40,684 nt of DNA from Anaerosomatales bacterium (GCA_029210645.1 JARGFT010000006.1:89061-129744); one strand, 5' to 3'. Counted from the first letter of the stretch, positions 19,933-36,674 are shown. Translations and numbers: made by a program. The notes: generated from the letters alone by a model not told the origin.

Positions 19933-20896
19933 GCTCACTCCCCTCCCCGCTCGCTGCGAACTCCTCAACCAGCCGGTCCATAAGCTCGTCGACAGTCGGA
20001 ACATCGTGCACGCGTGCTGCCGAGGAACCCGCGAAGACGAGACCGTCTTCGACGTCGCCGGCTTGTGCCATCTTGAGGCGCTCCATGATGCAGTACTCCT
20101 TGCCACACTTCTTCAGACAGGAGATACAGCGTCCGATGGGAGGCAACTCCCCGTCCGCCATCTTCCGCGAGAACGGGTTGCGGATCGCCCTGCCGGGTAG
20201 GCCGACCGGGCTTCTCACGATGACGATGTCGTCGTCCGTCGCATCGACGTACATTTGCTTGAACGCCTCAGGCGCAGAAGACTCCGTTGTTGCCGCGAAA
20301 CGAGAGCCCATCTGGACTCCGGCAGCACCCGCATCGAGGGTACGCCGGATGTCCGAGCCCGTGACGACGCCCCCCGCCCCGATGACCGGGATGTCGACTG
20401 CTTCGACGATCTCGGGTAACAGGTCGAGCATGGTGCGGTCCGTTCCGAGGTGGCCACCGGCTTCAACGCCTTCGACGATGACTGCCGCAGCTCCGAAGCG
20501 TTGTGACAGTGTCGCAACGCGAGCTGAGCCGACGATGGGGACCACAGGCACACCGGCGTCCGCTGCCCACTGGAAGACATCCCTCGAGAATCCTGCGCCA
20601 CAGACGAGGAGGTTCGTGCCGCCTTCCAGGGCGGCGTGTACCGTCTCCTTGAACTTGCGGATTGCTACCATGATGTTGACACCCACGACGCCGCCGTCGG
20701 CGATAGCGCGGGCAGCGCGGACCTCGGTGCGCATCTCGTCGGGTTCGAGCCCGGATCCCGCGATCAGCCCGATACCCCCGGCACGGGCAACTGCACCGGC
20801 AAGCGGTGCCATCGATATGCGGACCGCCATCCCTCCCTGGATGATCGGAAGGCGCGCGGTCTTGTCACCGATGGTCAGTGCAGGCATCTCGGGCAC
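19925..20896 (-). CDS. FabK/nitronate monooxygenase-like flavoprotein with four-Cys motif
   Basis: An FMN-binding TIM barrel of 323 residues, related to FabK and nitronate monooxygenase. Visible are PIIQGGMAVRISMAPLAGAV, a catalytic-type His in EGVEAGGHLGTD (H149), the FMN phosphate site VIGAGGVVTGSDIRRTLDAGA, and VQMGSRFAATTES. It differs from the true FabK at 22972-23928 by a C-terminal cluster RCISCLKKCGKEYC (C257, C260, C264, C269), which could bind metal or an Fe-S centre. The GTG at 20896 with GGGAG seven bases upstream is preferred over an open frame to 21001 that crosses a hairpin. It sits between acpP and fabF, suggesting a lipid role; the substrate is unknown. Confidence 0.85.
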   Translation of the reverse strand: MPEMPALTIGDKTARLPIIQGGMAVRISMAPLAGAVARAGGIGLIAGSGLEPDEMRTEVRAARAIADGGVVGVNIMVAIRKFKETVHAALEGGTNLLVCGAGFSRDVFQWAADAGVPVVPIVGSARVATLSQRFGAAAVIVEGVEAGGHLGTDRTMLDLLPEIVEAVDIPVIGAGGVVTGSDIRRTLDAGAAGVQMGSRFAATTESSAPEAFKQMYVDATDDDIVIVRSPVGLPGRAIRNPFSRKMADGELPPIGRCISCLKKCGKEYCIMERLKMAQAGDVEDGLVFAGSSAARVHDVPTVDELMDRLVEEFAASGEGSEHA

Positions 20897-20941
20897 GGCA
20901 TGACTCCCGGTTCGGGATACGGGCTTGCAGGAGTAGAGCAT

Positions 20942-22055: not shown

Positions 22056-22975
22056 TGCAGTATCTCCTCCACAACTGCCTGTACGCCGGTATCCTCAATA
22101 CTCACCACGGCGATGCCATCAACCCGCTTAGCGAGTCCGCGCAACACCGAGCCGGGCCCCACCTCGATCAGCGTCACCGGCGCGTAGCGCGTACACGCCC
22201 GCATGGTCTCGGTCCACCGAACGGGTGAGGGTATCTGGCGAGCGAGCGCACCCCTGATCTCACCGGCCTCCGTGGCAGGATCGGGGCGCGTGTTCTGGAG
22301 GACCGGGATCGCCGCATCGCAGAACTCCGCGGAAGCGAGGACGACAGAGAATGCATCCGCCGCCTGCTGCATCATCGGTGAGTGAAACGCCCCGGCGACG
22401 TCCAGCGGAACCACTCTTCGCGCGCCCGCTGAGAGTAGGGCATCCCCCGCCTGGGCAACCGCATCGCGCAGGCCGGAGATCACGACCTGCCCGGGAGCGT
22501 TGTCGTTGGCCAGCCACACGTCATCGATGCAGTGTACGACGTCGGCGACGACCTGACCGTCGAGACCAAGGACGGCGGACATGGCGCCGGGACACTCTGC
22601 GACAGCTTCTGCCATCAGCCGGGCACGCTCGCACACCAGTTCCAGACCGGCCTCGACCGAGAAGACACCGGCTACCGCAAGAGCTGCCAGCTCACCGAGG
22701 CTGTGTCCGGCTACCGCGACCGGACGGACCCCCACGTCGAGGAGCACGCTCCCCCACGCCCAGTCCGACAGGTAGAGCAACGGCTGGGCGACCTGGGTGT
22801 CGGCGAGCTCGGCCGGGGTGCCTTCGCGCTGGAGCCGACGCAGGTCCCGCTTCGTCAGCCCTTCAGCTGCATCGAGCAACCGGTCGAGCGTCTCGACCTC
22901 CGGAACGTCGTCGAGCATGCCGGTGCGCTGGGAACCCTGGCCCGGAAAGACGAGGACGGAGTTCATGATGGTCAC
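22052..22975 (-). CDS. fabD: Malonyl-CoA:ACP transacylase FabD
   Basis: Moves malonyl groups from CoA to ACP. The 307-residue protein has the N-terminal VFPGQGSQRTGM, the nucleophile elbow AGHSLGELAAL (S92), and the catalytic His in AGAFHSPMM (H198). EVGPGSVLRGLAKR lies near the end. The start is GTG at 22975, overlapping the fabK stop as GTGA; an ATG three codons later is an alternative. It belongs to the fabH-fabK-fabD-fabG series. Confidence 0.96.
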   Translation of the reverse strand: MTIMNSVLVFPGQGSQRTGMLDDVPEVETLDRLLDAAEGLTKRDLRRLQREGTPAELADTQVAQPLLYLSDWAWGSVLLDVGVRPVAVAGHSLGELAALAVAGVFSVEAGLELVCERARLMAEAVAECPGAMSAVLGLDGQVVADVVHCIDDVWLANDNAPGQVVISGLRDAVAQAGDALLSAGARRVVPLDVAGAFHSPMMQQAADAFSVVLASAEFCDAAIPVLQNTRPDPATEAGEIRGALARQIPSPVRWTETMRACTRYAPVTLIEVGPGSVLRGLAKRVDGIAVVSIEDTGVQAVVEEILQ

Positions 22976-23928
22976 TCGGCCGACCGGGTCGGAGTCGCGG
23001 CGATACGTCCCATGACGTCGATCGCCTCGGCGATCATCTCCTCGATGATCTCTGCTGCAGGCTGCACGCGATCGACCATTGCGGCCGACTGACCCGCCAT
23101 GATGGAGCCCATCTCAAGGTTGCCCTCGCGCATGCAAAGTGCCAGCTTGCCAGAGCCGAGGACCTCGATTTCCTCGGGACGGTTCTGACGATCGAGCTCG
23201 GCGATACTCTTCGCGAGTTTGTTCTTGATAACGCGAACAGGGTGACCGGTGGAGTAGCCAGTGACCACTGTGTCGCGGTCGCGAGCCTTGATGATCCGCT
23301 CCTTGACGTCGGGGTGGATCGTGCACTCGGTCGCGCACATGAAGCGCGTGCCGACCTGGACGCCCTCGGCGCCCAGCGCGAACGCCGCCGCGATCCCGCG
23401 GCCGTCGGCGATGCCGCCGGCTGCAACCACCGGGACACTCACCGCGTCGGCGAGCTGGGGTGTGAGGACCATCGTGGTGAGTTCTCCGATGTGACCCCCG
23501 GCCTCCATGCCCTCACCGATGATGGCGTCGGCACCGATGGCCTCAAGGCGACGGGCCAAGGCCACGCTCGGTGCGATCGGGAGCACCTTGATGCCCCGGT
23601 CCTTGAAGGAACTCATGTACTTGCCGGGATTGCCGGCACCGGTCGTCACCGCGCTGACGCCCTCCTCCAGGACCATGTCAACGAGTTCGTCGATGTGGGG
23701 CGTGAGCAGCATCAGGTTCACGCCGAAGGGTCGGCCGGTCAGTTCCTTTGCACGGCGCACCTGATCCCGAAGGAGCTCGGTAGGCATGTGGCCCGCGCCG
23801 ATGATGCCGAGACCCCCTGCGTTGCTCACGGCTGCGGCAAGCTCGGCGGTGGCGGTCCAGGCCATACCGCCCTGGATGATCGGATGCTCGATCCCGAGCA
23901 GCTCGGTGAGCCGGGTTCGAAGGGCCAT
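22972..23928 (-). CDS. fabK: Enoyl-ACP reductase II FabK
   Basis: FMN-dependent last reduction step of the fatty acid cycle. The 318-residue TIM barrel has IEHPIIQGGMAWTATAELAAAV, GRPFGVNLMLL, the catalytic His in GEGMEAGGHIGELTT (H146), and the FMN site VVAAGGIADGRGIAAAFALGA with VQVGTRFMCATEC. ATG at 23928 is supported by AAGGAGGCGTGAG directly upstream; it follows the fabH stop by one base. No FabI-type enzyme appears in the window, so this is probably the main enoyl reductase. A nitronate monooxygenase is the alternative reading but is less likely inside this cluster. Confidence 0.93.
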   Translation of the reverse strand: MALRTRLTELLGIEHPIIQGGMAWTATAELAAAVSNAGGLGIIGAGHMPTELLRDQVRRAKELTGRPFGVNLMLLTPHIDELVDMVLEEGVSAVTTGAGNPGKYMSSFKDRGIKVLPIAPSVALARRLEAIGADAIIGEGMEAGGHIGELTTMVLTPQLADAVSVPVVAAGGIADGRGIAAAFALGAEGVQVGTRFMCATECTIHPDVKERIIKARDRDTVVTGYSTGHPVRVIKNKLAKSIAELDRQNRPEEIEVLGSGKLALCMREGNLEMGSIMAGQSAAMVDRVQPAAEIIEEMIAEAIDVMGRIAATPTRSAE

Positions 23929-23929
23929 C

Positions 23930-24934
23930 TCACGCCTCCTTGGTAGGTCGGGCCATGGTCCAGCGAACGACACCGGCACCCCAGGTCAGCCCTGCGCCGA
24001 ACCCGACGAGTGCTATGAGGTCTCCGGGTGCGAGTTGCCCGCTAGTATACAAATCGTCCAGAGCCAATGGGATCGATGCCGCAGAGGTGTTGCCCACACG
24101 ATCGACGCGGCTGAACACCCGATCGGACGGGATCCCCAAGCGCTGCCCGACCGTCTGGATGATGCGCTGGTTCGCCTGGTGCGGCACGAGCCAGTCGAGA
24201 TCCGTTACGGTCAAGCCGCTCGCTGCGAGCGCCTCGTTGGTCGCACGCGGGATTATCTTCACCGCGAACCGGAATACCTCGCTGCCGTTCATCGTCAGGA
24301 AGTTCTCGCGCGCGTCGAGCGCATCGCGGGTGATGGGTCGGGCGGAGCCGCCAGCTGGAACCTTCAGCAAATCGGCTCCGGAACCGTCCGCCCCGAGAGC
24401 GATACCGAGCACCCCCGGTTCGTCGGTGGCCTCGAGTATGACCGCACCAGCGCCGTCGCCGAAGAGAACGCAGGTGGACCGGTCGGTGAAATCGATGATG
24501 CGGGTGAGAGCGTCGGCGCCCACGACGGCAACGCGGCCGGCGCGACCGGACTCGATGGCGCTGACTCCCGCCTGCAGGGCGTAGACGAAACCCGAACACG
24601 CAGCATTGATGTCGAATGCGGGGCACACCATGCCGAGACGGTTCTGCACGAGGCAGGCGGTCGAGGGGAACAGCATGTCCGGGCTGGAGGTCCCGACGAT
24701 CAGAAGGTCGATACCGTTCGGTGCGATGCCGGCCTTCATAAGAGCTGCGGTAAGGGCGGCAGCGGCAAGGTCGGAGGTGGCCTGGTCATCGGCTACGATC
24801 CGCCGTTCGACGATACCCGTGCGCGAACGTATCCACTCGTCCGATGTGTCGACGAGGGTCTCGAGTTCCGCGTTGGTGAGTATGCGTTCGGGCAGGTAGG
24901 AGCCTATCCCGATGATCGATGCGTGAGTGGTCAT
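23930..24934 (-). CDS. fabH: 3-oxoacyl-ACP synthase III FabH
   Basis: Starts fatty acid synthesis by condensing an acyl-CoA primer with malonyl-ACP. The 334-residue protein has C113 in DINAACSGFVYALQ, H252 in LVPHQANQRIIQ and N282 in VGNTSAASIPLAL. It opens with IIGIGSYLPERILTNAEL. ATG at 24934; the GAGGAG lies about 12 bases upstream. The primer choice (acetyl or branched acyl-CoA) cannot be read by eye. An acyl-CoA synthetase upstream in the same run is a possible primer source. Confidence 0.97.
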   Translation of the reverse strand: MTTHASIIGIGSYLPERILTNAELETLVDTSDEWIRSRTGIVERRIVADDQATSDLAAAALTAALMKAGIAPNGIDLLIVGTSSPDMLFPSTACLVQNRLGMVCPAFDINAACSGFVYALQAGVSAIESGRAGRVAVVGADALTRIIDFTDRSTCVLFGDGAGAVILEATDEPGVLGIALGADGSGADLLKVPAGGSARPITRDALDARENFLTMNGSEVFRFAVKIIPRATNEALAASGLTVTDLDWLVPHQANQRIIQTVGQRLGIPSDRVFSRVDRVGNTSAASIPLALDDLYTSGQLAPGDLIALVGFGAGLTWGAGVVRWTMARPTKEA

Positions 24935-25044: not shown

Positions 25045-26049
25045 CTACGATGCCTCCGGTGCCACCGCCGTGGAGATGCGCTCGGGCATCCCGCCGCGGA
25101 CAGCCCGCGCCGCGACGCCGATACCGGCGCACACCGCCCTGGACGACGAACTCCCGTGTCCGATGATGCACACGCCTCTCACGCCGAGCAGCGGTGCCCC
25201 GCCGTAGGTGTCGGGATCCAACCGTGCCTTCATCCGTCTGACTGATGGGGCCAGCACCGCGGCCGCCATCCGTCGGATGGGCGACGAGGTCATGGCCTCT
25301 CTTACCTGAAGAAGGAGCGTTCTGGAGGTTCCTTCCAGCAGCTTGAGGACGACGTTGCCGGTAAAGCCGTCTGTCACGATGACATCGACGGCGCTGGAAA
25401 GAACCTCTCGACCCTCGACATTCCCCGCAAATCCCGGAACAGCGGAGAGCATGAGCGCGTGCGCCTCGATGGCGAGTGCGGAGCCCTTTGTCGCCTCCTC
25501 ACCGATGTTGAGCAGCCCGACGGCCGGCTCGGTGACCCCGAGCACTGCCTGTGCGTACGCGATGCCCATGTGAGCGAAGGCGACGAGGTGCTCGGGTTTG
25601 CAGTCCGCATTCGCGCCGACGTCGAGGAGCACCACAGGGGTGGTCGGCGTCGGGATGATGGTCGCGATTGCCGGACGTGCGACTCCCTTGAGGCGTCCCA
25701 TCACCAGGGTGGCGGCAGCCATGCACGCACCGGTCGAACCTGCAGAGAAGAAGGCCTCGGCTTCGCCGTCCCTGACGAGGCGGCAGCCGACGACGATCGA
25801 CGAGTCGCCCTTCGAGCGGACGGCGCTCGCCGGGTGGTCCTCCATGGCGATGACCTGTGTCGTCGGATGCGGCGTCGCCCTCGGCCGTGTTTCGGCGTAC
25901 GGGACGACGATATCGGCCGGGCCGGTGAGGATGACCTCCAGCGCCGGATCGGCCGCAAGTGCCCGTGTGACCCCCTCGAGAACCTCCGCCGGGGCGAAGT
26001 CGCCACCCATGGTATCCACGCACACGCGAACCGGGCGCGCCTCGGTCAT
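25045..26049 (-). CDS. plsX: Phosphate acyltransferase PlsX
   Basis: Converts acyl-ACP and phosphate to acyl-phosphate, the donor for PlsY in phosphatidic acid synthesis. Family motifs: VDTMGGDFAPAEVLEG at the N-terminus, SAGSTGACMAAATLVMGRL, LLDVGANADCKPEHLVAFA, NIGEEATKGS, and VIVTDGFTGNVVLKLLEG. The length of 334 residues is normal. AAGGAGGG lies before overlapping TTG (26052) and ATG (26049); the ATG is used. In many bacteria rpmF directly precedes plsX; here two other genes lie between them. Confidence 0.97.
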   Translation of the reverse strand: MTEARPVRVCVDTMGGDFAPAEVLEGVTRALAADPALEVILTGPADIVVPYAETRPRATPHPTTQVIAMEDHPASAVRSKGDSSIVVGCRLVRDGEAEAFFSAGSTGACMAAATLVMGRLKGVARPAIATIIPTPTTPVVLLDVGANADCKPEHLVAFAHMGIAYAQAVLGVTEPAVGLLNIGEEATKGSALAIEAHALMLSAVPGFAGNVEGREVLSSAVDVIVTDGFTGNVVLKLLEGTSRTLLLQVREAMTSSPIRRMAAAVLAPSVRRMKARLDPDTYGGAPLLGVRGVCIIGHGSSSSRAVCAGIGVAARAVRGGMPERISTAVAPEAS

Positions 26050-26071
26050 CAAGCCCTCCTTGCGAGACGGA

Positions 26072-27145
26072 TCATGGCAGATCGGTGCCGGTCAGAGACT
26101 TCAACATCAGGTGGACGTCGACCGATTCCTCCAACATCTCGCGTATTCTAGCAGCCTTCACCGGGTCGTGGAGGCGCACGCGGCCGAAGAGACGTTCGAG
26201 GCGTTCGACCGTCGCCAGGGTGTCGAGGCCGACCAGCACCATGGGAACGCCGAGCTCCTCCGCCCGGGACAGGACATGGCCGGAGGGCGGGAGGTCCCCG
26301 GTCAGAACGAGAGCGCGGGTGTCGGTCTCCAGCGCCGCGAGCTGGACGTCCGAGCGGTCCCCGCCGGTGATGACGACCTTTCGGGGGCGCCTGCGGAAGA
26401 AGCGCATGGCCTTGTCCTGCCCCATTGCCCCGACCATGAAGGACTCAGCAGCCATGCCGGTCCTCTCCTCGGCGCTCAGCACGGTTCCCTCCAGTGCCTC
26501 GACAATCTCGTCGATGGTGACCGAGGAGAGCGTGGCGTCGTGCGGGACGGCACCGAAGACAGTGATCCCGTGACCCTCGAGGAAGGGTGCCGCCTGCGCT
26601 TTCACGAATCCGCTGACCACCGGAGCAACGTCGTTGAAGATGACCCCCGCCAGGCGCTCTCCGAGGGTGTCAGCGGCGGCGAGCACGGCGTCGGGGAGCG
26701 CCGCCCGCTCTCCGGCGACCACCAGCAGAACCCTCGAATCGAGCAGTTCGGCCACCTGGGAAAGGGAGAGATCGACGGAGCGGCCCTGGAAAGCGTCTGA
26801 GGGACCCTCGATGACCACCAGATCGGCACCGGCCGAGACGACGTCGAATGCCTCACGGACGCGGGGACGAACGTCTGACCGGCGGCCCGCGACCACGTCT
26901 TCGAGGAACGTTGACGTTTCCACGACGGGGCAGACGAGATCGAGCGGTGCTTCAGAACTCGCATGTTCCGAGATGTAGACGGCGTCCAGGTCGGTATGCA
27001 CTCCCCCGACGGTGGCCGGCATCGTCCCGTAGGGTTTGAAATAGGCCGTGTTCAATCCCCGATCACGGGCGATCGCGAGCAGAGCGAGCACGATGCCGCT
27101 CTTTCCGATGTATGGCCGAGTCGAGGCCACGATGAAGGCATGCAT
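26072..27145 (-). CDS. BioD-like/DRTGG domain protein (phosphotransacetylase N-terminal type)
   Basis: A 357-residue protein resembling the N-terminal, non-catalytic half of long phosphate acetyltransferases (COG0857). An AAA_26/BioD-like P-loop domain is at about 1-205, with ASTRPYIGKSGI at residues 7-18, TAYFKPYGTMP and LVVIEGPSD. A DRTGG domain follows at about 210-315 (VVITGGDRSDVQLAAL, ALVLTGDLPPS). The PTA catalytic domain is absent, so it is probably a sensor or regulator rather than a transferase. ATG at 27145 overlaps the stop of the acyl-CoA synthetase as TGATG, after GGAGGAACG, implying a joint function in acyl-CoA or acetate metabolism. Confidence 0.8.
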   Translation of the reverse strand: MHAFIVASTRPYIGKSGIVLALLAIARDRGLNTAYFKPYGTMPATVGGVHTDLDAVYISEHASSEAPLDLVCPVVETSTFLEDVVAGRRSDVRPRVREAFDVVSAGADLVVIEGPSDAFQGRSVDLSLSQVAELLDSRVLLVVAGERAALPDAVLAAADTLGERLAGVIFNDVAPVVSGFVKAQAAPFLEGHGITVFGAVPHDATLSSVTIDEIVEALEGTVLSAEERTGMAAESFMVGAMGQDKAMRFFRRRPRKVVITGGDRSDVQLAALETDTRALVLTGDLPPSGHVLSRAEELGVPMVLVGLDTLATVERLERLFGRVRLHDPVKAARIREMLEESVDVHLMLKSLTGTDLP

Positions 27146-29247
27146 CACGTTCCTCCAATGCCGATGCGTACGTCCGCCGCCCACACACCCTGACCCTCAT
27201 CGCCGACGATGAGGGGGTTGATGTCGAGCTCCACGATCTTCGGGAAGTCGAGGACGAGCGAGGACACGCCCTCGATCGCCGCTGCGACCTCCGTGAGATC
27301 GGCTTTAGCCTCGCCGCGCGCGCCCCTCAGAAGACCGAACGAGCGGATCTCCGAGATCATGCGCTCCGCCTCGGCGAGGTCGACGGGGCAGAGCCGGAAG
27401 ACGACGTCCTTGAAGACCTCGACGTAGATCCCGCCGAGGCCGAACATGAGAAGCGGGCCGAACACAGGATCGCGGTCGACCCCGATGATCACCTCGCGAC
27501 CCGGAGGCACCATGCGCTGGATATGTACGCCCTCCAGTGCCGCATCGGGCGCGTAAGCGCGTGCCCTGTCGAGGACCTCATCGTAGGCCGCCTCCAACTC
27601 CGCGGCAGAATCGATCCCTACCCGCAACCCACCGACGTCGGACTTGTGCAGGATCTCCGGGCTCACGATCTTCAGCGCGACGGGATAGCCGATCCGCTCG
27701 GCGACCTCGAGCGCGGTCTTCCTGTCGGCGGCAAGGGCACCGTCAGGCACCCGTATCCCGTACGTAGAGACGATGTCAGCAGCGGACTGCTCGGTCAGGA
27801 AGGTCCGGCCCTCGCCAACCGCCCGCGCGACCGCGGTTCGGACCGCCACACGAGCGGCAACAGTATCCCGACGCACGGGTGGGTCGGCCGAGGCCACCGC
27901 GGCATACGCACCCATAGCTCCAAGGGTGTGAATCGCCCTCTCCGGGGTCGGGTAGGTCGGGATCGCCCCGGCCGCAAGGATACGCTGGGCTTCGTGGATC
28001 AGCGGTCCGCCCATGAAGCATGCCAGCGTGGTGACATCGGGGCGCTTCTTGGCTGCGGCGACCACTGTTCGCGCTACCGCTGCCGGATCCGTCATCGCTT
28101 GCGGCGTCAGGATCACGACCATCGCGTGCACGCTCGGATCGGGGTACAGCGCTTCGAGGGTCTCGTGGTACCTGTCAGCCCCGGCATCTCCTAAGACGTC
28201 AACCGGGTTGTAGAGTGCGGCGGCATCCGGCAGTGACGCTCGCAGGAGGTCAAGGGTCTCAGGGGCGAACGTCGCCAGTGCGATGCCCTCTTCGTCGGCC
28301 GCATCCGTCGCCATGACCGCAGGCCCGCCTGCGTTGGTGACGATGGCGATCCCCGAGCCCTTCACCACCGGCTGGAGCGAGAAGCCAGCCGAGAAATCGA
28401 AGAGATCCTGGACGCTCCGGGCGCGGATGACACCCGCGTGTCGGAACGCGGCATCGTAGGCGACGTCGGAGCCGGCGAGACTTCCCGTGTGAGAGGAGAC
28501 TGCACGCGCTCCGGAGTCTGAGGCGCCTGCCTTCAGTGCGATCACGGGCTTGCGCCGCACGGCAGACCGTGCCGCCTCGAGAAAGCGTGGCCCGTCGGCG
28601 ACGGATTCCAGGTAGAGCGCGATGACGGTGGCCTCCGGGTCGTTCTCAAGCGCGCCGAGAAGATCGGGCTCGGAGATGTCCGCGCGGTTGCCCACGGAGA
28701 TGAAGTGAGAGACCCCCAGACCGTCGTCGGCGGCCCGGTCCAGGATAGCCGTGCCCAGCGCGCCGGACTGGGAGACAAAGGCGATCCCGCCAGCGGGGGG
28801 CATCGACCCGGCGAACGAGGCGTTGAGACCGACGTGGGTCGAGACAAGGCCGAGGCAGTTCGGTCCGAGCAACCGGACCCCACCTTGGCGTGCCCGCTCT
28901 ACGACATCGCGTTGAAGCGCAGCGCCCTGTGGACCGCTCTCCGTGAAGCCGGCGGTGATGACGATCGCCGCACCTACCCCGGCCTGCCCGCATTCGGCGA
29001 TGACGCCGGGGACCAACTGAGCGGGAACCGCGACGACGGCCAGGTCCACCGGGGGCGGCGCATCGCGCACGGAGTCGTAGCACGCAAGGCCGAGAACCTT
29101 GTCGGCACGCGGATTCACCGGGTAGATGCGTCCGGAGAACCGCCCGCTGAGGAGGTTTGCCAGGACGACGTGACCGACTTTGCCCGGTTCCCGGGCAGCA
29201 CCGATGACCGCTACCGCGCGGGGTCGCAACAGATGCGCAAGTGCCAC
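27145..29247 (-). CDS. ADP-forming acyl/acetyl-CoA synthetase, fused alpha-beta
   Basis: Interconverts acyl-CoA, ADP and phosphate with the free acid, CoA and ATP. The 700-residue protein joins both subunits. The alpha part has the CoA-binding fold (AVAVIGAAREPGKVGHVVL, YPVNPRADKVLG), the LLGPNCLGL segment and the phosphohistidine site SSHTGSLAGSD (H253). The beta part is an ATP-grasp domain from about 480, with YPVALKIVSPEILHKSDVGG (H534). Direction and substrate are not visible: acetate production with ATP gain, or activation of short or branched acids. The start is GTG at 29247. It lies between rpmF and plsX, an unusual place, and is coupled to the DRTGG gene. Confidence 0.9.
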   Translation of the reverse strand: MALAHLLRPRAVAVIGAAREPGKVGHVVLANLLSGRFSGRIYPVNPRADKVLGLACYDSVRDAPPPVDLAVVAVPAQLVPGVIAECGQAGVGAAIVITAGFTESGPQGAALQRDVVERARQGGVRLLGPNCLGLVSTHVGLNASFAGSMPPAGGIAFVSQSGALGTAILDRAADDGLGVSHFISVGNRADISEPDLLGALENDPEATVIALYLESVADGPRFLEAARSAVRRKPVIALKAGASDSGARAVSSHTGSLAGSDVAYDAAFRHAGVIRARSVQDLFDFSAGFSLQPVVKGSGIAIVTNAGGPAVMATDAADEEGIALATFAPETLDLLRASLPDAAALYNPVDVLGDAGADRYHETLEALYPDPSVHAMVVILTPQAMTDPAAVARTVVAAAKKRPDVTTLACFMGGPLIHEAQRILAAGAIPTYPTPERAIHTLGAMGAYAAVASADPPVRRDTVAARVAVRTAVARAVGEGRTFLTEQSAADIVSTYGIRVPDGALAADRKTALEVAERIGYPVALKIVSPEILHKSDVGGLRVGIDSAAELEAAYDEVLDRARAYAPDAALEGVHIQRMVPPGREVIIGVDRDPVFGPLLMFGLGGIYVEVFKDVVFRLCPVDLAEAERMISEIRSFGLLRGARGEAKADLTEVAAAIEGVSSLVLDFPKIVELDINPLIVGDEGQGVWAADVRIGIGGT

Positions 29248-29300: not shown

Positions 29301-29477
29301 CTACTCGGTATCGATGACTTCCTTACCCTTGTAGTACCCACACTCCGGGCAAACGCGATGGGGAAGCTTGGGCTGATGGCACTGGGGGCATGTCGAGCTG
29401 GGAGGAGCATCGAGCGAGTGAGTCGCCCTGCGGGCGTCACGAACGGCGCGGGATGTCTTCCTCTTGGGTACGGGCAT
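29301..29477 (-). CDS. rpmF: 50S ribosomal protein L32, zinc-binding form
   Basis: A small ribosomal protein of 58 residues beginning [20 protein letters not shown]. Two CxxC pairs, CPQCHQPK and [10 protein letters not shown], show that it is the zinc-ribbon form. ATG at 29477 has AAGGAGACACG upstream; the nine residues in front of it in the open frame are not family-like. It is the usual partner of DUF177 upstream and plsX downstream. Confidence 0.97.
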
Positions 29478-29595: not shown

Positions 29596-30135
29596 CTACT
29601 CATCTTCTGGCGGGAGCAGGTCTTTGAGCGATGAGAAGGGGTTCTCGGGTCGGTTCTCCGCCACCGGTTCGCAGGTGCAAGAGTCCCGGTTGAGGTCACA
29701 CCCGCACATCGGACAGATGCCCCGGCACTCCTCATCGTGGACAGGGGCGAACGGCACCTCGACGCGCAGTGCGCTCTCCGCAGCCGGAAGCAGGTCGAGG
29801 ATCTCCCCGTCGAGCGGGTACCACTCCTGATCGTCGCCGCGCTGCTCGGTGTCGTCGATCTGCGAGACGACCGCATCGATAACGCCGTTCAGGACCAGAG
29901 CGAAGGGCTCCAGGCAGCGGGAGCACTCGAGCCGTGCCGCCGCCTCGACGGTGCCCGTAAGAACAAGGACCTCACCGGCGTGTGCGAGGGTCACGCGGAT
30001 ACGGGGCGGCACCTCGAAGACGGCGAGCGTGTCGCCGACGGCGATCGATTCGAGCGGGACATCACTGTCCAGCTCCAGCGTGGCTCCGGCCTCACCGAGT
30101 ATGGGCGAGACGTCGACAGTCAACCGGTCTCCCAT
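29596..30135 (-). CDS. DUF177 (YceD) family protein with cysteine ribbon
   Basis: A 179-residue member of the YceD/DUF177 family, conserved next to rpmF and linked in other organisms to 23S rRNA or ribosome accumulation. Family features: ARLECSRCLEPFALVLNG with a CxxC, a Glu/Asp-rich middle part, and ICPMCGCDLNRDSCTC with further cysteines that probably bind zinc. It starts at ATG 30135, two bases after the preceding stop, with no strong ribosome site of its own, so translation is probably coupled. The exact role is unknown. Confidence 0.9.
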   Translation of the reverse strand: MGDRLTVDVSPILGEAGATLELDSDVPLESIAVGDTLAVFEVPPRIRVTLAHAGEVLVLTGTVEAAARLECSRCLEPFALVLNGVIDAVVSQIDDTEQRGDDQEWYPLDGEILDLLPAAESALRVEVPFAPVHDEECRGICPMCGCDLNRDSCTCEPVAENRPENPFSSLKDLLPPEDE

Positions 30136-33810: not shown

Positions 33811-34662
33811 TCAGGAGATGGGGTAGTAGGCAAGACCGACCGCGCCCGGGCCGGCATACGTCCCGATGACCGCTCCAACCGAGCCGATCATGTCGAGCTC
33901 GTAATCCACTCCGGCAGCATCCAGAGCGGACACCATCTGGTTCGCGAGTTCGGGAGCGGAGCCGTGCAGTACCGAGAGGCGCACCGTGCTGCCGGCAGAG
34001 TCGGCGGCGACCTGCGCGGCGAGCTCGGCAAGGGCTTTCTTGAGCCCCTTGACCTTCTTGAAGGGCTCGATGGTGCCTTCAGGAGTGAAGGTCAGGACCG
34101 GCTTGATGTTGAGCACCGACGCGGCAAGACCCGCAGCCTTACCCGCACGCCCGCCTTTCACCAGATACTCGAGGGTGTCGAGGATGAAGTAGAGGCGTGA
34201 TGTCTCAGCTGCCGTTCGCGCTGCCTCCTCCACCTCGGACGCCGAACCTCCACCATCGCGCGCTTCGATGGCAGCCTTGATGGCCAGTGCAGTGGCCATC
34301 GACACGGTCTTGGTATCGACGATGCGGATGGGTACGGGAGCATCGACAGCAGCAAGCGTGGCGGACTCGAAGGTGCCGGAGAGTGCGGATGTAAGGTGGA
34401 TGGAAACGATCTCCGTGCAGCCTTCCTCGGCAAGCTGGGCGTATGCTGTTGCGAAGTCCGCAGGCGAGGGCTGCGATGTCTTCGGGAGCACCGGGTATGC
34501 GGCGAGTTTGACGTAGAACTCATCCGGAGACATATCGGTCCAGTCGAGATAGGAGTCCGTGCCGAACAGTACCTTCAGGGGCACCATCCGGACCCCATGG
34601 TTGCCGAGCCACTGAGGTCCGAGATCGCAGGTGCTGTCGCACACGATACCTACGCGGGTCAT
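33811..34662 (-). CDS. fakB: DegV family fatty acid-binding protein FakB
   Basis: FakB proteins hold a fatty acid while FakA phosphorylates its carboxyl group. The 283-residue protein starts TRVGIVCDSTCDL and has the fatty acid contact loop HLTSALSGTFESA, IRIVDTKTVSMAT, and EYLVKGGRAGK, all typical of DegV. It follows fakA by 25 bases, which supports a dedicated FakA-FakB pair. The chain preference is not visible. The product acyl-phosphate feeds PlsY directly or PlsX in reverse. Confidence 0.92.
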   Translation of the reverse strand: MTRVGIVCDSTCDLGPQWLGNHGVRMVPLKVLFGTDSYLDWTDMSPDEFYVKLAAYPVLPKTSQPSPADFATAYAQLAEEGCTEIVSIHLTSALSGTFESATLAAVDAPVPIRIVDTKTVSMATALAIKAAIEARDGGGSASEVEEAARTAAETSRLYFILDTLEYLVKGGRAGKAAGLAASVLNIKPVLTFTPEGTIEPFKKVKGLKKALAELAAQVAADSAGSTVRLSVLHGSAPELANQMVSALDAAGVDYELDMIGSVGAVIGTYAGPGAVGLAYYPIS

Positions 34663-34687: not shown

Positions 34688-36307
34688 TCACTCCACCGAC
34701 ATGATCACGGGATAGAGCGGCTGGCCACCCCTGTGATGTTCGACCTCGATCTCCGGATGCGCAGCGGAGATGTCGGCGGCAAGCTGTTCGAGATCGGTAT
34801 CGCTGACTTCTGACCCGCCGAGCAACGTCAACGTCTCACCGTCTCCGATAATGATGTCGGCGAGCTTGAGTGCAACGTCGGCCACGCCCTCACCGACCAC
34901 CTCTATCTCGTGGTCGGCGATGCCGATGACCTGGCCCTTGGAGATCGGACCCACCTTGCCCTTCGAGTCCTTGACTGCTGTGGTGACCTCGCCCGTCCTG
35001 ACTTCGGCCGCGGCCTGCGTCATCGCACGGGCCACCGAGTCGAGATCCGCGTGGGCATCGGCTGCAAGCATGGCTGCAAAGGCCTCGGGCACAGACGTGG
35101 TGGGCACCACCGCAACAGGCATCGGGGCGACAGGTATGACCTGCTGAGCAGCCATCTGGATGTTCTTGTTGTTGGGCAGGATGATGACTGACTCCGCATG
35201 CACCTCCTCGGCGGCGGCGAGAAGCTCCGCTGTGGACGGGTTCATCGTCTGTCCGCCGTTGACCACCATGTCGACCCCGAGGCTGGCAAGGATCTCCCGG
35301 ATGCCGTCTCCCGCACCCACGGCGACGAAACCGATCGCCTTTCGGGGCGTGTCGGGAGCTGCGCCGGGTTCAGAGCGCAGACCCTCGGTGCGGGCCTCGG
35401 TCTGCTGGCGCATGTTGTTGATGTGCACCTCGGCGACCTCGCCCAGGGCTGTCATGTAGGAGAGCACAGCCCCCGGATCGTCGGTATGTACGTGGATCTT
35501 GAGCAAGCCGCCTTCCCCGACAACCAGCTCCGAGCCGCCCTGCGACGCCACGTACTCCTCGACCGAGTGTCTGTCGAGTGCCTCACCCAAGAGCAGGAAC
35601 TCCGTGCAGTAGACGTACTCCTCGTCGTCCCAGTCGTCCACCGGCTGGATATCGAACACGGGAACCGTTGCCGGCTCCATCACGGAGGTGTCGAACTCCG
35701 TGCCGCGCCAGGCGGCAAGAAGCCCCTCGGCGAGGATGGACAGGCCGAATCCCCCCGCGTCGACGACGCCATTCTCCTTGAGGACGGGGAGCAACTCGGG
35801 CGTGCGGCGAACCGACTCCACCGAGGCGGCCAGGATGGCGTCGAGCGCGGACTCGAGGTCGGTACCTGCGTCAGCCGCACTGCGCGCAGCAGCCGCGCTG
35901 TCGCGCAGGACGGTCAGCATCGTGCCCTCCACGGGCTTGCGGACCGCCTGGAAGGCGACCGCGGTGGCTCTCTCGAGCGCCCCCGCCAGGAGTTCCGGCC
36001 CGTCGGCCGACCCGGCGGCGATGACCTCGCACAGACCGCGGAGTATCTGACTCAAGATAACTCCCGAGTTGCCCCGGGCGCCCATCAGCGACCCGTGCGT
36101 GACGGCCTGACAGATGTCGGAAACCGACGCGGTCGGAGGCATCTGCCCGAGCTCGGCCACGACAGCGTCCATGGTCAGCGACATGTTCGTACCGGTGTCG
36201 CCGTCGGGTACCGGAAAGACGTTGAGCCGGTTGACCTCTTCGGCACGCTCGCGCAGTGCGTTCGCCGCGGCGCCGACCAGAGCTGTGAAGGAAGGAGACG
36301 GGGTCAT
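34688..36307 (-). CDS. fakA: Fatty acid kinase FakA (DAK2/DegV-associated)
   Basis: Kinase that makes acyl-phosphate from FakB-bound fatty acids. The 539-residue protein has the N-terminal DhaL-like kinase domain with NVFPVPDGDTGTNMSLTM (Mg-ATP aspartates D35 and D37), then GARGNSGVILSQIL. The middle domain contains VYCTEFLLLG and GLLKIHVHTDDPGAVL. The C-terminal FakB-binding domain has NGGQTMNPSTAELLAA and ILPNNKNI. ATG at 36307 with GAGG five bases upstream is preferred to an open frame extending into gls24. It sits directly after gls24, an arrangement known from Firmicutes. Confidence 0.95.
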   Translation of the reverse strand: MTPSPSFTALVGAAANALRERAEEVNRLNVFPVPDGDTGTNMSLTMDAVVAELGQMPPTASVSDICQAVTHGSLMGARGNSGVILSQILRGLCEVIAAGSADGPELLAGALERATAVAFQAVRKPVEGTMLTVLRDSAAAARSAADAGTDLESALDAILAASVESVRRTPELLPVLKENGVVDAGGFGLSILAEGLLAAWRGTEFDTSVMEPATVPVFDIQPVDDWDDEEYVYCTEFLLLGEALDRHSVEEYVASQGGSELVVGEGGLLKIHVHTDDPGAVLSYMTALGEVAEVHINNMRQQTEARTEGLRSEPGAAPDTPRKAIGFVAVGAGDGIREILASLGVDMVVNGGQTMNPSTAELLAAAEEVHAESVIILPNNKNIQMAAQQVIPVAPMPVAVVPTTSVPEAFAAMLAADAHADLDSVARAMTQAAAEVRTGEVTTAVKDSKGKVGPISKGQVIGIADHEIEVVGEGVADVALKLADIIIGDGETLTLLGGSEVSDTDLEQLAADISAAHPEIEVEHHRGGQPLYPVIMSVE

Positions 36308-36326
36308 CGAACCTCTTTCGAATCGG

Positions 36327-36674
36327 TCACTTGCGAACCTTGATGCCCTGGACGTGGACATCGATGTCATCGACCACCACGCCGCCGACGGTCTGCAGGA
36401 CGTAGCGCACCCGGTCCGCGAGATTCTGTGAAACCTGACCGAGGTTCGTGCCGTGCTCGATGACGACGAACAGGTCGACCTTCACGCTGTCGCCGTGACT
36501 ATGGATCGCCACTCCCTTGCGCAGCTTCTCTCTTGAAAGAAGCTGCGCGACACCGTCACGCAGCGAGGGGCTCGCCATCCCGACGATGCCGTAGCACTCC
36601 AGCGCTGCGAAACCTGCGACCTCGGCAAGCACATCGTCGTGGATCTCGATGTCTCCCCGGATACTCTCGGGCAT
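36327..36674 (-). CDS. Asp23/Gls24 family envelope-stress protein
   Basis: A 115-residue member of the Asp23/Gls24 (DUF322) family. Features: IEIHDDVLAEVAGFAALECYG near the N-terminus and the FVVIEHGTNLGQVSQNLADRV strand-helix that typifies the family. Homologues are abundant envelope-associated proteins; a copy before fakA is common and suggests a link to lipid metabolism. The ATG at 36674 directly abuts the previous TAG, behind GAGGAGGGACGC. There is no membrane segment, so any envelope contact is through partners. Confidence 0.92.
   Translation of the reverse strand: MPESIRGDIEIHDDVLAEVAGFAALECYGIVGMASPSLRDGVAQLLSREKLRKGVAIHSHGDSVKVDLFVVIEHGTNLGQVSQNLADRVRYVLQTVGGVVVDDIDVHVQGIKVRK

Follow-up and report, generated by a model that had tools for sequence, protein, structure and literature searches.

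The window analyzed here, a stretch of 40,684 nucleotides from an Anaerosomatales bacterium, carries between rpmF and plsX two coupled genes, the first encoding an ADP-forming acyl-CoA synthetase (ACD) and the second a stand-alone protein with a DRTGG domain. We consider it fairly probable that ACD is an acetate/ATP enzyme and that the DRTGG protein is a nucleotide-binding partner which tunes its activity; substrate, direction, contact, ligand and regulation are all points that we infer. In the open-access literature searched, no description was found of the pair or its location between rpmF and plsX, nor of the link of the partner to ACD or the phylum-wide location of both genes.

Organization of the locus

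The features of the locus are as follows:

34688-36370, minus strand: fakA, upstream of rpmF
33811-34662, minus strand: fakB/DegV-type gene, upstream of rpmF
29596-30135, minus strand: yceD/DUF177 (PF02620)
29301-29477, minus strand: rpmF, ribosomal protein L32 (TIGR01031, PF01783)
27145-29247, minus strand: ACD, ADP(NDP)-forming acyl-CoA synthetase, 700 aa (Pfam, NCBIfam, solved relatives)
27143-27147, minus strand: TGATG stop/start overlap of ACD and DRTGG (sequence; GGAGG Shine-Dalgarno upstream)
26072-27145, minus strand: DRTGG protein, AAA_26 plus DRTGG, 357 aa (Pfam, structure model)
25045-26052, minus strand: plsX, phosphate acyltransferase (TIGR00182, 332 bits)
23930-24934, minus strand: fabH, beta-ketoacyl-ACP synthase III (TIGR00747, 398 bits)

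The gene order on the minus strand is fakA, fakB/DegV, recG, rsmD, coaD, a coiled-coil gene, yceD and rpmF, followed by ACD, DRTGG, plsX, fabH, fabK, fabD, fabG, acpP, fabK2 and fabF. The initial annotation had described a TGATG-coupled pair between rpmF and plsX, and the overlap is indeed exact at 27147-27143: the TGA of ACD occupies 27147-27145 and the ATG of the DRTGG gene 27145-27143, with one base common to both. It had also pointed to plsX and fabH downstream, which is correct, and to fakA/fakB upstream, which are present but separated from rpmF by the five genes from recG to yceD. The true ATG of rpmF is at 29477 (29504 in the ORF list), the DRTGG gene starts at ATG 27145 and not at GTG 27184, and plsX probably starts at ATG 26049. 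The intergenic gaps are 53 nt (rpmF-ACD) and 19 nt (DRTGG-plsX), and an otherwise uninformative promoter/terminator scan revealed no terminator-like sites in the gaps from rpmF to plsX. Read from the sequence, rpmF-ACD-DRTGG-plsX-fabH is a tight minus-strand operon.

The fab operon contains two genes for FabK-like reductases of the nitronate monooxygenase type (22972-23934 and about 20000-20901), both of which are kept throughout the order. The host genome comprises about 2 Mb in 46 contigs, and its close relatives are Coriobacteriia MAGs; the order is presumably Anaerosomatales/OPB41.

Conservation and history of the gene order

Using a sample of 61 genomes of the same order (the own genome and relatives), we found a strong DRTGG match in 38 genomes, and in one additional genome (G002) rpmF-ACD is visible up to the contig end. 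ACD is located directly upstream of DRTGG at all 37 testable loci and the pair is flanked by both rpmF and plsX at 35 of them; the other two stop at contig edges. This recurrence in every genome of the order that has the pair indicates that the arrangement is not due to chance. In 19 genomes without the pair, rpmF is directly followed by plsX at a distance of 6-247 nt. Mapped onto the flanking-protein tree, presence and absence of the pair require eight changes, seven of which are forced by well-supported branches, and the pair is also present in the outgroups, which suggests an ancestral pair with repeated loss. In the ACD tree the order forms one clade, with inner groups similar to those of the flanking-gene tree and main clades common to both, and a recent horizontal insertion at rpmF-plsX is ruled out by these trees. 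The pair, which had been regarded as inserted between rpmF and plsX, is probably the ancestral arrangement and appears to have been lost repeatedly.

When 396 genomes from across the phylum were searched, stand-alone DRTGG proteins (E < 1e-100) were separated from class II Pta (E 1e-38 to 1e-21), the latter with open frames of mostly 690-1040 aa. At 40 stand-alone loci examined in the rest of the phylum, ACD is directly upstream in 34 and rpmF in front in 28, and the full rpmF-ACD-DRTGG-plsX order is present in 16 (36-50% identity). In one clade inside the phylum the pair is located apart from rpmF/plsX. At a few loci DRTGG adjoins rpmF but a fused ACD is missing; most of these genomes, three in number, carry split alpha/beta ACD genes elsewhere, and G363 has only a longer ACD-like open frame of 950 aa, so that the role of the partner may be broader. 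At L195 the order is rpmF-DRTGG-plsX without ACD, and L185, L191 and L200 also keep DRTGG after loss of the fused ACD. In L200, the C-terminal 48 residues of ACD are matched by tblastn just upstream of DRTGG, in a 71-aa open frame that is possibly an ACD remnant.

Outside the phylum the pairing of ACD and DRTGG persists, usually apart from lipid genes. Among 398 genomes from the Ammonifex phylum, 38 encode a stand-alone DRTGG protein, with ACD just upstream at all loci checked and lipid genes mostly not in view, and at the haloarchaeal and Desulfovibrio loci checked ACD is directly upstream of DRTGG and plsX is absent nearby. A scattering of the pair away from lipid genes, which the initial annotation would have taken as a refutation of its reading, is accordingly seen in other phyla and in a single clade of the own phylum, but not inside the order, where the location is fixed.

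It is a serious possibility, though not the one we favor, that the location at rpmF-plsX is functionally meaningless and represents old synteny by vertical descent, which would be compatible with our explanation of the proteins themselves. The agreement of the ACD and flanking-gene trees in their main clades, the absences as repeated losses and a location that is not kept outside the phylum are all in line with this. However, two observations in the Ammonifex phylum would be unexpected under neutrality. An unrelated acetate system is located beside yceD-rpmF, as yceD-rpmF(-plsX) directly follows (pta-)ackA at 23 of 30 AckA loci; these 30 were taken as those with the best scores, and the set is not random and includes near-duplicates. 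Furthermore, three loci (L256, L263, L266) have ACD-DRTGG in the same neighborhood but encoded on the opposite strand, with the coiled-coil gene on one side and yceD-rpmF-plsX on the other; AckA gave no match in the gap of these inverted loci. The (pta-)ackA arrangement resembles the locus described here in that acetate/ATP-forming genes adjoin rpmF-plsX, but (pta-)ackA is non-homologous to ACD and is located upstream of yceD, whereas the pair here is located between rpmF and plsX.

The synthetase and its partner

CoA_binding_2, Succ_CoA_lig, Ligase_CoA_2 and ATP-grasp_5 domains extend across the full length of ACD, in which the alpha and beta subunits are fused in that order. The best solved relatives are 8wzu for the whole length, 2csu and 4xyl for the alpha part and 1wr2 and 4xyl for the beta part. 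Both the alpha His motif (SSHTGSL) and the beta His motif (ILHKSD) are present and can be aligned with 1wr2 and with the alpha and beta subunits of 4xyl; in 9it0, a related 'protein acetyltransferase', the alpha motif is missing. The TIGR02717 alpha model gives 564.5 bits (cut-off 567.15), other equivalogs stay far under their cut-offs, and among NCBIfam models that match over the full length, 4-hydroxybutyrate--CoA ligase scores best, with 626 bits against a cut-off of 1300 bits. By its domains and catalytic histidines the protein is an ADP-forming acyl-CoA synthetase, a known kind of enzyme; with respect to its presumed substrate and direction it is most likely an acetate--CoA ligase (ADP-forming), but it counts against an acetate role that ACDs of this family accept further acids as well. 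Pyrococcus ACD I, Ca. Korarchaeum ACD1 (4xyl), Archaeoglobus AF1211 and Chloroflexus ACD have the same domains and both catalytic histidines, and the solved archaeal subunits align along their length with the alpha and beta parts. The present enzyme differs from them by having alpha and beta in one chain, by the codon overlap with DRTGG and by its location in a ribosome/lipid operon.

Profile searches for Pta and PduL, which were run with positive controls, found Pta (PF01515) above the cut-off in two of the 61 genomes of the order, whereas none of them has PduL (PF06130), which rules out PduL as a hidden Pta replacement; the own genome has neither. AckA is present in 12 of the 61 genomes. In the own genome it adjoins phosphoketolase (L133:3241-6789, G000 contig C41) and, because of this neighbor, need not use acetyl-CoA. 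With phosphoketolase-AckA and without Pta or PduL, the acetyl-phosphate and acetyl-CoA pools of this genome appear to be linked through acetate only. In the Ammonifex phylum, strong AckA occurs in 164 of 182 pair-negative but in 5 of 17 pair-positive genomes (Fisher p 6e-8, kinship ignored). This anticorrelation, together with (pta-)ackA at yceD-rpmF and the near-absence of Pta, points to a functional replacement, by which acetyl-CoA is converted to acetate with gain of ATP. Acetate formation does not seem to be obligatory, since in most of the 19 pair-less relatives a survey that covered Pta, PduL and AckA found no complete alternative acetate route. In the literature, a putative ACD has been described in place of the lactate-operon ack-pta in six Desulfovibrio species (PMC4481167), deep actinobacterial clades are devoid of pta and ack and mostly have acd (PMC7325909), and an acetate-CoA ligase has been reported for Anaerosomatales isolates (PMC9686372).

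It is also conceivable, but in our opinion improbable, that ACD works mainly in reverse and activates acetate, for example from phosphoketolase-AckA, to acetyl-CoA for lipid/carbon synthesis. The own genome, despite phosphoketolase and AckA, has no Pta to convert acetyl-P to acetyl-CoA, and ACD has been proposed for acetate activation in a syntrophic acetate oxidizer (PMC5113046). Neither this direction nor the opposite one is readable from sequence, but the AckA anticorrelation and the replacement of pta-ackA in lactate-oxidizing Desulfovibrio (PMC4481167) fit acetate formation better.

According to Pfam, the 357-aa DRTGG protein consists of AAA_26 (3-208) and DRTGG (213-318). The initial annotation was right that it has no transferase domain: PTA_PTB (PF01515) was not found in the protein, and PRK05632 gives 100.6 bits against a cut-off of 418 bits. 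In the structure model (pLDDT 91.8) the N-terminal fold matches dethiobiotin synthetase 1dbs (Z 21.1, 214 residues, 2.9 A), the DRTGG domain matches AF1212, the nearest solved DRTGG structure (Z 20.2, 114 residues, 1.7 A, 45% identity), and the model also matches the N-terminal domain of E. coli Pta (7t85). Aligned to BioD, K15, K37 and D54 fall on the GKT, KP and DA positions, whose residues we take to belong to the BioD active site. K15 is kept in 120 of 129 stand-alone rows and K37 and D54 in all 129, with some loci counted twice, whereas all 18 actinobacterial class II Pta sequences have Arg in place of K37 and differ among themselves at D54. Judged by these residues, the stand-alone protein does not resemble a regulatory domain in decay and seems capable of binding ATP-Mg. 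One DRTGG clade (L183, L189, L197, L201, L202, L204, L208) has lost the P-loop lysine (AGLHT-like); its pair was not seen at rpmF/plsX and the ACD neighbor is kept. The N-terminal fold and the equivalents of K15, K37 and D54 are common with BioD (1dts, 1dbs), but the protein is 21% identical to it, no biotin genes were recognized beside the DRTGG gene, and the attached DRTGG domain argues against dethiobiotin synthesis.

The distance matrices of ACD and DRTGG correlate with 0.89, and the partial correlation with the flanking genes removed is 0.53-0.60; for the flanking genes, the correlation with ACD or DRTGG is 0.48 at most. Long frames that might have represented ACD-DRTGG fusions, and thereby a proof of contact (1076 aa, G020), are not fusions, as the genes are in different frames. 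Known stand-alone AAA-DRTGG proteins have acetate-forming enzymes as neighbors, as is probably the case here. By its locus number AF1212 (2ioj) adjoins the acetate-CoA ligase AF1211, and DVU3031, with the same AAA plus DRTGG make-up, adjoins pta-ackA in Desulfovibrio (PMC4481167), whereas the protein described here goes with ACD between rpmF and plsX. DVU3031 is required for growth on L-lactate (PMC10102598) but, according to Vita et al. (PMC4481167), does not belong to the pathway of lactate oxidation. The N-terminal regulatory region of class II Pta (7t85) has the same succession of AAA_26/BioD-like and DRTGG parts with detectable homology, and is required for full activity and involved in oligomerization (PMC12724200); the present protein differs from class II Pta by the missing PTA_PTB and by keeping K37 and D54. 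Because its distances track those of ACD, and considering the precedent of class II Pta and the phenotype of DVU3031 on L-lactate, a partner acting on ACD in trans is the most economical reading.

We regard it as doubtful that the DRTGG protein is instead an active BioD-like ATP-dependent enzyme, which would act on a separate substrate around the acetyl-CoA/acyl-phosphate node, and not a regulator of ACD. The conservation of K15, K37 and D54, which are altered in class II Pta, would fit such an enzyme, as would the few genomes with DRTGG at rpmF and no fused ACD. However, co-occurrence and co-evolution with ACD are strong, the clade without the P-loop lysine still has its ACD neighbor, and regions that carry DRTGG have a regulatory role in class II Pta (PMC12724200) and have been connected with control by nucleotides in CBS-pyrophosphatase (PMC7705103).

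Drainage of acetyl-CoA to acetate with gain of ATP, with the DRTGG protein as regulator, is likely and remains the best-supported reading of the catalytic histidines, the distribution of Pta and AckA, the co-evolution and the BioD residues. ACD would turn acetyl-CoA into acetate and thereby make ATP. The DRTGG protein, as a BioD-fold P-loop protein, would be built like the regulatory N terminus of class II Pta, but on a separate chain, would most likely bind ATP/ADP or another adenine nucleotide, and would associate with ACD and tune its activity to the energy state. As a possible reason for the location, the rpmF-plsX site may be an old phylum-level placement of an acetyl-CoA overflow/ATP valve in a growth operon for ribosome, membrane lipids and fatty acids, with pta-ackA taking nearly the same place in another phylum.

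ACDs are reversible and some of them take branched short acids. The position before plsX-fabH is fixed across much of the phylum, and the initial annotation had proposed that ACD supplies short or branched acyl-CoA primers for FabH, the pair being a dedicated lipid module. This is unlikely, and the least probable of the readings, as the fab operon is intact in the 19 pair-less relatives, outside the phylum, also in Desulfovibrio, the pair is mostly located away from fab genes, the link to FabH/PlsX is absent in haloarchaea, Ammonifex, most loci of the Ammonifex phylum and one clade of the own phylum, and haloarchaea, which have the pair, to our knowledge have no type II fatty-acid synthesis.

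Wider implications

The published metabolic model of Anaerosomatales contains a 'phosphoacetyltransferase' (MCK8114184/MCL4079559) two loci after the acetate-CoA ligase (MCK8114182/MCL4079557) (PMC9686372). Based on the gene order rpmF-ACD-DRTGG-plsX, this protein is probably PlsX. We therefore suggest a correction of the model, as hardly any genome of the order has a true Pta (2/61), and if the protein is PlsX, the fate proposed for acetyl-phosphate in the reductive glycine pathway would be affected.

Furthermore, our data suggest that two unrelated acetate/ATP systems came to adjoin rpmF-plsX. Tentatively, and with more reservation than for the locus itself, all these points could be combined: the stand-alone BioD-DRTGG protein might be a general, hitherto unrecognized nucleotide-driven (ATPase-switch) subunit of ACD in bacteria and archaea, class II Pta might carry the same module in fused form with a partly lost ATP site, and an acetate/ATP node might have been placed into the ribosome-lipid operon of two phyla by non-homologous enzymes. 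For a widespread family known mainly from the structure of AF1212 and the mutant phenotype of DVU3031, the pairing with ACD offers a hypothesis on function.
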